Assembly (NCBI RefSeq): GCF_900683735.1
Contig: NZ_LR215979.1
Coordinates: 2,604,001-2,668,000 of the forward strand
Direction of reading: 5' to 3'
Origin: Fusobacterium ulcerans ATCC 49185
GTDB taxonomy: Bacteria > Fusobacteriota > Fusobacteriia > Fusobacteriales > Fusobacteriaceae
DNA: 64,000 nucleotides
A program made the translations under genes and the position numbers. Below are positions 60,728-61,998 of the stretch, piece after piece; the first letter of the stretch is position 1; each line of letters begins with the position of its first letter. The notes under the pieces are model-generated. The model worked only from the letters and a program-made list of their open reading frames with translations, was not told the origin of the DNA and ran no database searches.

Positions 60728-60751
60728 AAAGGCTGAACTATGTCAGCCTTT
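60728..60751 (-). terminator. Rho-independent terminator of the CARF gene
   Basis: On the minus strand AAAGGCTG pairs with CAGCCTTT around an 8-base loop, followed by TTATAATT; about 25 bp beyond the stop codon. Confidence 0.8.
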
Positions 60752-60775: not shown

Positions 60776-61864
60776 TTAGTCTAAAAAGTTTTCATTAAAA
60801 TAAGCAAGCAGTGACTTCATTACTTTTTCTGTTCCACCTACTGTGTATAAATCTATTCCTGCTACCCCTTTTCCACATTTATATTCTAAGCTTACTATCA
60901 TCTGTTCATGATAATTCTGAGCTAATGAGAATTTTGAAAAAGCTATATTTCTATCAGGGTTATAATATACAACTTTTAATTTCTCTACATATGGACAGCA
61001 TTTCAATGAATTTACTATATTCTCTAATTCTTCAGTTACTTTTATACTTCCTGCCATTTCCTTATCTGCTGGAGCACGTTTGCTTGTACTTAAAGGAAGA
61101 TTACTTGTTGAAGTCATTCTCTTCATGTAAAATTCTCCCATAGCAGAAAATTCAGCATACTTTTCTCCATTCTCTTCTTCAAATTCTATAAAGTTTTTTA
61201 AATAAGGACTTTTTATTAAAATATCTTTAATTTCAGATTCTTTAACTTTTTCTTTTCTATCTATTAATTTAAAGAATTCCTTATTTTCCAGATAAAAATC
61301 ATAATCTATTTTCATTGGTAAGGGTGATATTTCTGTCACTTCATTGAATTCATCAAACATAAAATATGACTTTAAATGAAGAAGCTGTGCCATAAGTCCT
61401 ACTAGAAATATTTCTGCCTTATATCCTCCAACTGTACATACACTGACATTTAAACTATTTCCTATTTTATTAACTATATTTCTTATTTCTTCAGTAAGTC
61501 CTTTAAGGCCAAGAGTTTTAAATTCTTTATGATTTCTTTTGTTCAAGTTATGAATAATTCTTTTTTCTACTATTTTAGCTATATTTTTTTTAAGGATAAA
61601 CTCTTCAAGAACATCTCCAGCCAATTTTCCATTTTCTGTATCATGAATTATGAGAAATATTCTTTTTCCAGAAAATATTTTTTTATCCATAAGATTTTCC
61701 AGTGCTATTATTTCTGCACCATATCTCCTATCTCTAAAATCTTTTATATTTTCCTTTTCATAGTACCCAAGTATATCTTCTTTAGTTATATTTTCTTTCT
61801 TTGGGTTATTGGCAATGTAATTTTCTACAAGGCTAGTTCCCACAGTCATAATAATGTTGTCCAT
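60776..61864 (-). CDS. Orphan CARF-domain protein (Csm6/Csx1-like N-terminus, unassigned C-terminal domain)
   Basis: 362 residues with the start at 61864 (GGAGG upstream). Residues 1-175 look like a CARF domain of the APE2256/TIGR02619 type: the first strand and loop MTVGTSLVEN, and the second ligand loop VCTVGGYKAE, followed by SPLPMKID. Such domains bind cyclic oligoadenylates made by type III CRISPR complexes. Residues about 195-255 look like a helical linker or winged helix. The last 100 residues form an alpha/beta domain (KLKVVYYNP, MIVSLEYKCG) that I cannot assign; no HEPN R-x4-6-H motif is seen there. It has its own promoter and terminator. No cas gene or array lies in the window. Confidence 0.72.
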   Translation of the reverse strand: MDNIIMTVGTSLVENYIANNPKKENITKEDILGYYEKENIKDFRDRRYGAEIIALENLMDKKIFSGKRIFLIIHDTENGKLAGDVLEEFILKKNIAKIVEKRIIHNLNKRNHKEFKTLGLKGLTEEIRNIVNKIGNSLNVSVCTVGGYKAEIFLVGLMAQLLHLKSYFMFDEFNEVTEISPLPMKIDYDFYLENKEFFKLIDRKEKVKESEIKDILIKSPYLKNFIEFEEENGEKYAEFSAMGEFYMKRMTSTSNLPLSTSKRAPADKEMAGSIKVTEELENIVNSLKCCPYVEKLKVVYYNPDRNIAFSKFSLAQNYHEQMIVSLEYKCGKGVAGIDLYTVGGTEKVMKSLLAYFNENFLD

Positions 61865-61901
61865 TATGAGTTCCTCCATTCTGAATGTTTTTCTACCTAA
61901 T

Positions 61902-61930
61902 TTATTACCCTTTTAGAAGCCATTTGTCAA
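61902..61930 (-). promoter_or_regulatory. Promoter of the CARF gene
   Basis: Minus-strand TTGACA, 17-bp spacer, TAATAA, about 38 bp upstream of the ATG at 61864. Confidence 0.7.
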
Positions 61931-61998
61931 TAGTTATACAGCATTTTTTTTAATTTCATGAAATAGTGAACCTTTGTATTTTTTAATTAAATTAAAAA

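Follow-up and report, generated by a model that had tools for sequence, protein, structure and literature searches.

A stand-alone gene for a predicted CARF7--CARF_DUF2103 protein is kept throughout a fusobacterial genus, mostly without Cas10

Introduction

CARF effectors are normally tied to type III loci. What, then, does a CARF protein do when its gene stands alone? Such a protein could await mobile type III systems, guard the cell against them, or serve another messenger altogether. The window analysed here, the whole 64,000-nucleotide stretch of Fusobacterium ulcerans ATCC 49185 DNA, contains a gene of this kind. The protein is kept by every sampled species of the genus, mostly without Cas10, which makes it a clean test of the role of a lone CARF protein. 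New here are this core status mostly without cas10, the constraint on the gene, its promoter, the change of a pocket lysine in one clade, and the finding that a RelE reading of the C-terminal domain is unsupported.

Results

Gene structure and expression signals

The original prediction described a stand-alone CARF gene, and this description held. An intact reading frame of 362 amino acids occupies positions 60776–61864 of the minus strand, with the ATG at 61864 and the stop codon at 60776–60778, as first given, and its profile matches and top fold neighbours are CARF proteins. It encodes a CARF domain, a wHTH-like linker and a C-terminal domain. The ATG at 61864 is the likelier start, since an in-frame ATG at 61879 would overlap the Shine-Dalgarno sequence GGAGG (61873–61877, minus strand).

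The gene had also been credited with its own promoter and terminator, and elements corresponding to both were located. The promoter (61902–61930, minus strand) consists of a -35 box TTGACA (61930–61925), a 17-bp spacer and the hexamer TAATAA (61907–61902); our scan for consensus promoters overlooked it because the scan requires a final T in the -10 hexamer. The -35 box is TTGACA in 14 of the 15 homologues and TTGACT in the remaining one, and the distance from its end to the start codon is 56–70 nt among homologues. Downstream, an intrinsic terminator-like hairpin (60728–60751, minus strand) lies 25 bases past the gene end. An Rfam search of the window gave no match. A 12-bp palindrome, ATTTCATGAAAT, is located at window positions 61953–61964, 22 bp upstream of the -35 box; of the four closest species, three have it unaltered and the fourth has it with a single change, and it was not seen in other clades.

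CARF domain and family assignment

Residues 1–182 (61319–61864, minus strand) form the predicted CARF domain (Cas_APE2256), and both ligand-loop signatures expected of it were found, motif I as TVGTSL at residues 7–12 and motif II as TVGGYKAE at residues 144–151. The Pfam model PF09651 (Cas_APE2256) matched residues 46–179 with 72.6 bits against a cut-off of 24.8 (E 3.8e-20). The NCBIfam model TIGR02619 reached E 1e-6, yet its 28.7 bits fall below its cut-off of 37.45. By far the longest match was to the PADLOC model PDLC01932 (CARF7--CARF_DUF2103), covering residues 1–361 of a 361-position model (726 bits, E 2e-219), and the second model of this name, PDLC01930, scored 191 bits. These scores place the predicted CARF assignment far beyond chance.

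Judged by its sequence, the window protein is a member of the catalogued, uncharacterised CARF7--CARF_DUF2103 family (PADLOC-DB PDLC01932 and PDLC01930), which it resembles over its full length, C-terminal domain included; we found no described function for the catalogue entry in the literature searched. Hence, of the earlier view that the C-terminal domain is without assigned function and possibly new, the former part stands; the architecture as a whole, however, is already in PADLOC.

An AlphaFold2 model of the monomer, computed with 17 homologues as input, predicted a Rossmann-like CARF fold at the N-terminus with confidence (pLDDT 87.9, pTM 0.80), in line with the structural check proposed for this gene. 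The top PDB neighbours of the full model were CARF proteins throughout (Cami1, Sis0811 and SSO1393, Z 16–21). Residues 186–251 (61112–61309, minus strand) were modelled as a helical linker with a beta-hairpin, a wHTH-like element common to Cami1 and Sis0811/SSO1393.

The best solved match was Cami1, the CARF-RelE protein of Allochromatium vinosum (8PHB/8PHJ; Z 20.8, rmsd 4.5, 277 residues), which our locus L120:23-1168 encodes itself. The likeness is confined to the CARF domain and the wHTH-like linker (hhalign 96.9%, residues 4–254), with the GTS and GG-aromatic-K motifs common to both proteins; the C-terminal domains cannot be aligned. Further, the gene for Cami1 lies beside cas10 in a type III-B locus, whereas the window gene is in no type III locus. 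The Crn1-type ring nucleases with a wHTH, Sis0811 and SSO1393, matched with Z of about 16 over residues 1–253, in agreement with sequence profiles, and have the CARF fold and the serine and lysine positions of the window protein. However, they end after the wHTH, where the window protein continues for about 100 residues.

Residues of the predicted ligand pocket

Three residues of the window protein correspond by alignment to ring-nuclease or ligand positions of characterised relatives. S11 (codon 61832–61834, minus strand) is equivalent to the ring-nuclease serine S12 of both Sis0811 and SyCsm6; E51 (61712–61714, minus strand), invariant in the 17 homologues, to SyCsm6 E70; and K149 (61418–61420, minus strand) to SyCsm6 K167 and Sis0811 K169, which is involved in cA4 binding. 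The GTS of motif I has been linked with cOA cleavage (PMC10018336). SyCsm6 (Sll7062), a CARF7-RelE protein from Synechocystis pSYSA, is a ring nuclease in vitro; S12, E70 and K167 are its ring-nuclease and ligand residues, and its K167A variant no longer degrades cA4 (PMC9676260). The window protein has all three equivalents, as do its near relatives, and with them counterparts of the catalytic serine, glutamate and lysine of the Crn1 ring nucleases. SyCsm6 differs in belonging to a type III-D locus, and its alignment with the window protein stops before the C-terminal domain. As far as the sequence can tell, the signature of a cyclic-oligoadenylate pocket is intact in the window's lineage.

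This does not extend to all homologues. The six species of the F. mortiferum group all have T in place of K149, with motif II reading GGYTAE, and two species of genus g12 have K in place of S11, with motif I reading GTKL. CARF families without the strand-4 lysine or arginine may bind other ligands (PMC4012209). For the choice of ligand, the replacement of this lysine in a single clade amounts to a natural experiment.

The C-terminal domain

The C-terminal domain (residues 262–362; 60779–61081, minus strand) was modelled as alpha-beta-beta-beta-beta-alpha with a conserved NP[DN]R, and reached a pLDDT of 84.2 when modelled alone. The absence of HEPN noted at the outset is borne out, as the last 100 residues are not all-helical and models of CARF_DUF2103 and CARF_RelE lead the PADLOC matches. 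The protein therefore differs from the CARF-HEPN proteins Csm6/Csx1, whose HEPN domain is all-helical with an RxxxxH motif. Conserved positions include Y292, N302-P303-[DN]304-R305 and K/R311-F312; distant members still share the Y, the NPD/SPD part and F312. On inspection these positions suggest no evident nuclease site and no recognisable catalytic motif. The domain is a candidate effector, in which broad conservation is limited to the NP[DN] stretch and a handful of other positions.

Among the PADLOC profiles, the C-terminal domain alone matched only the two CARF_DUF2103 models (E 2.1e-53). A Pfam search with 16 homologous C-terminal domains gave no match. The Pfam DUF2103 model itself (PF09876) matched neither these 16 domains nor the homologous genes in the genomes, in searches where the HMMER filters drop weak matches, and the name "DUF2103" is therefore unconfirmed for the window's domain. 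At E 0.001 or Z 5, the C-terminal model had no counterpart in the PDB, and nothing was better than E 0.05 or Z 4.1; RelE did not appear among the matches listed, a result that does not decide against the fold. RelE, HEPN, PD-(D/E)xK and other known effectors were each considered as assignments for residues 262–362 and not adopted, with neither a profile nor a convincing PDB match behind them. Accordingly, neither the RelE-like effector originally suggested nor the PD-(D/E)xK option gained support from the sequence or structure of this domain.

The best match among predicted viral structures was the unnamed protein A0A5P8D682 (E 2e-3, TM 0.59/0.64), and PHROGs returned weak matches to unnamed families only. 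No convincing free-standing copy of the domain was found elsewhere in the Fusobacteriota (best E 0.007). Profile alignments with Cami1 and SyCsm6 end near residues 254–267, while that with a protein of the Nostoc plasmid pNe_2 reaches residue 359 (hhalign 99.8%, columns 46–359).

Cas10 and other signal sources

The genome consists of one 3.84-Mb contig. Across all of it, models of Csm1/Cas10, Cmr2 and the Cas10 palm detected no cas10 over the cut-off. The type III system that had been envisaged elsewhere in the same genome was accordingly not found. Neither was a SMODS nucleotidyltransferase, and the idea that a CBASS enzyme of this kind in the same genome supplies the signal was dropped. As had been observed for the window, no cas genes surround the CARF7 gene. 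A type I-B-like cas operon (G000:C1:1262749-1272114; L049:2750-12114), its subtype judged solely by the order and sizes of the genes, is found 1.3 Mb away from the window; it contains the single cas1 of the genome (at 1,270,072) and is followed by a CRISPR array of about 10 repeats containing GTAGAATATTAACTCAGAAGTCT.

The proposal that the gene answers to a resident type III system fared no better at the level of the phylum. Among 98 Fusobacteriota, gene and cas10 were not associated (5/17 versus 13/81, Fisher p 0.30), a test that is only a rough guide because the genomes are related. Within the genus, cas10 was present in 2 of the 12 genomes that carry the CARF7 gene. In at least three genomes (G001, G011 and G052), type III loci have their own CARF genes and the CARF7 gene sits elsewhere.

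Distribution, neighbours and selection

Homologues were found in 12/12 genomes of the genus and 3/3 of genus g12, plus two distant ones. In the window's clade the gene is flanked by adenine deaminase-like and coaE-like genes, and in other clades by 3-methyladenine-glycosylase-like, ABC transporter, oxidoreductase or phosphofructokinase-like genes, all named by sequence reading. These changing neighbours indicate that the CARF7 gene is a self-contained unit without a constant partner.

For pairs among four genomes without cas10 (G000, G008, G009 and G010), dN/dS of the gene was 0.045–0.060, with 0.050–0.063 for the CARF part and 0.015–0.058 for the C-terminal domain, which is constrained at least as much as the CARF part in most pairs. 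Similar pairs gave 0.064–0.101 for the neighbouring U32 gene and 0.03–0.08 for cas1. Purifying selection on the CARF7 gene is thus as strong as on its housekeeping neighbour. As dS was 0.5–0.8, the gene has stayed intact far longer than strain-level time.

Proteins of genus g12 are 51–53% identical to the window protein and so as close to it as those of the F. mortiferum group, even though g12 is much further away by the U32 marker. This resembled transfer, but identity between the F. mortiferum group and g12 is lower still (41–45%), and accelerated divergence along the F. mortiferum stem accounts for the closeness of g12 equally well; transfer was not retained. Two loci from the first genus search (L014 and L015) were discarded as relatives for having a short match only; the matching gene presumably encodes a phage ArdC-type protein. 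A single-protein scan of the genome contigs gave no further relatives, and an alignment scan of them returned five loci, apparently already counted. No phage relatives of the protein were found in 50,697 phage records or in IMG/VR.

Relatives within type III loci

In a protein search, 8/8 distinct CARF7 relatives on plasmids adjoined type III genes. One of them, the full-length homologue on Nostoc plasmid pNe_2, sits in a type III gene cluster; among the typed plasmid relatives only this Nostoc edaphicum protein has the same C-terminal domain. With all eight inside type III loci, the gene looks like a type III accessory gene that was freed and kept, and descent from such a gene is the simplest reading. 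Every CARF family has members unlinked to CRISPR-Cas (PMC4012209).

A partial, distant homologue in G063, whose genome has cas10, comes after cas1- and cas2-like genes. Another distant homologue, in G036 (L055:9502-15300), has a CRISPR array at a distance of about 1.2 kb. The ATTAAGAAACATATCCATTTAAAACAAGGATTAAAAC repeats of this array form two blocks, and the 300-bp stretches that precede the two blocks are near-identical (91%). A second CARF gene is present 8 kb from the homologue in the same region; no cas10 was detected in the G036 genome.

Discussion

We favour, at a probability of roughly 45%, the reading that the gene encodes a ligand-gated defence sensor and effector, a former type III accessory protein that is now a fixed chromosomal gene and is fed in trans. 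Fold and family, the residues S11, E51 and K149, the type III ancestry, and conservation and selection without a resident cas10 all count for it. From these, and by analogy with Cami1 and SyCsm6, we infer that the protein would dimerise through its CARF domain, and that the pocket made by the GTS of motif I and the GGYK of motif II would bind a cyclic oligoadenylate, cA4 being the likeliest. The wHTH-like linker would relay binding to the C-terminal domain, which would respond as the effector, and in the window's lineage the CARF domain would probably also cleave the ligand slowly via S11/E51/K149 and so switch itself off. The signal may arrive in trans from type III systems on mobile elements or in other strains, and a mobile type III source is plausible since two species of the genus have type III. 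Against this reading, the genome offers no known source of a ligand, and across the 98 Fusobacteriota the gene shows no association with cas10; housekeeping-grade selection is odd for an effector awaiting rare visitors; and six species keep the gene having lost a lysine that relatives need for cA4 handling.

Those last points would sit well with a sensor re-used for another nucleotide signal, made by a chromosomal enzyme or defence system, in a resident non-CRISPR function. We regard this as somewhat unlikely, even though it would account for a core gene in a genus where only 2/12 genomes have cas10, for the housekeeping level of purifying selection, and for a near-consensus -35 promoter kept across differing gene contexts. 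Both pocket changes, K149 to T in the six F. mortiferum-group species and S11 to K in two of g12, are compatible with it, as is the view that CARF families without the strand-4 lysine or arginine may bind other ligands (PMC4012209). It also has a precedent in VC1899 of Vibrio cholerae, an orphan CARF protein without a type III tie that has lost its cA4 pocket and is possibly a degenerate enzyme "cast adrift" (PMC7969007). VC1899, however, belongs to another CARF family, carries a PD-(D/E)xK nuclease and has a pocket that has degenerated, whereas the window's lineage keeps the canonical pocket residues and its gene does not look degenerate. Further, the search of the genome for a SMODS nucleotidyltransferase offered no alternative synthase, and the gene has no constant partner. 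The strength of selection without a resident Cas10, together with the lysine loss in one clade, nevertheless leaves room for another messenger. A bolder and rather unlikely version would have a type III accessory protein, now a resident core gene, sense a messenger not made by Cas10 and act through a C-terminal domain that is new among CARF effectors in both fold and activity, with the pocket already altered in the F. mortiferum group.

The closest matches of the CARF part, to ring nucleases and Cami1, bear on two further explanations. The protein could be a ring nuclease first and foremost, a chromosomal scavenger that destroys cyclic oligoadenylate and shields the cell from incoming type III systems, with a C-terminal domain that only regulates. 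S11, E51 and K149 are all there, and an auto-inhibitory wHTH is cited for Sis0811 (PMC10018336). We consider this improbable nonetheless, given that in most pairs constraint on the C-terminal domain equals or exceeds that on the CARF part, and that the F. mortiferum group is without the lysine whose mutation abolishes the ring-nuclease activity of SyCsm6. The C-terminal domain could instead be a diverged RelE toxin that cleaves mRNA upon cA4 in the manner of Cami1, as a ribosome-dependent RNase. Cami1 has the same order of CARF domain, wHTH-like linker and alpha/beta domain of some 100 residues and heads the PDB matches of the whole model, and the distant homologue in G036 aligns along a CARF_RelE profile almost to its end. 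Yet hhalign with Cami1 ends at residue 254, the C-terminal domain alone matches the CARF_DUF2103 profiles and not CARF_RelE, and its model retrieves nothing from the PDB at E 0.001 or Z 5, with no RelE listed; we hold a RelE toxin to be improbable as well.

Other CARF, type III and CBASS-type loci

Several further loci were recorded in the genomes compared. A protein of about 570 aa matching the PADLOC "CARF" model PDLC01165 is what the CARF gene encodes in the type III-A loci of both G011 and G001 (L050:6943-8655 and L051:5151-6866), and it has a 37%-identical relative in G036 (L055:3-1145). Beside its III-A locus, G011 carries a second type III-like locus (L056:8402-16733), which encodes a short Cas10 of 573 aa and includes a CARF-HEPN gene resembling Csx1. 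In G002, a CBASS-type nucleotidyltransferase gene (L057:9285-10430) is followed downstream by small partner-like genes.
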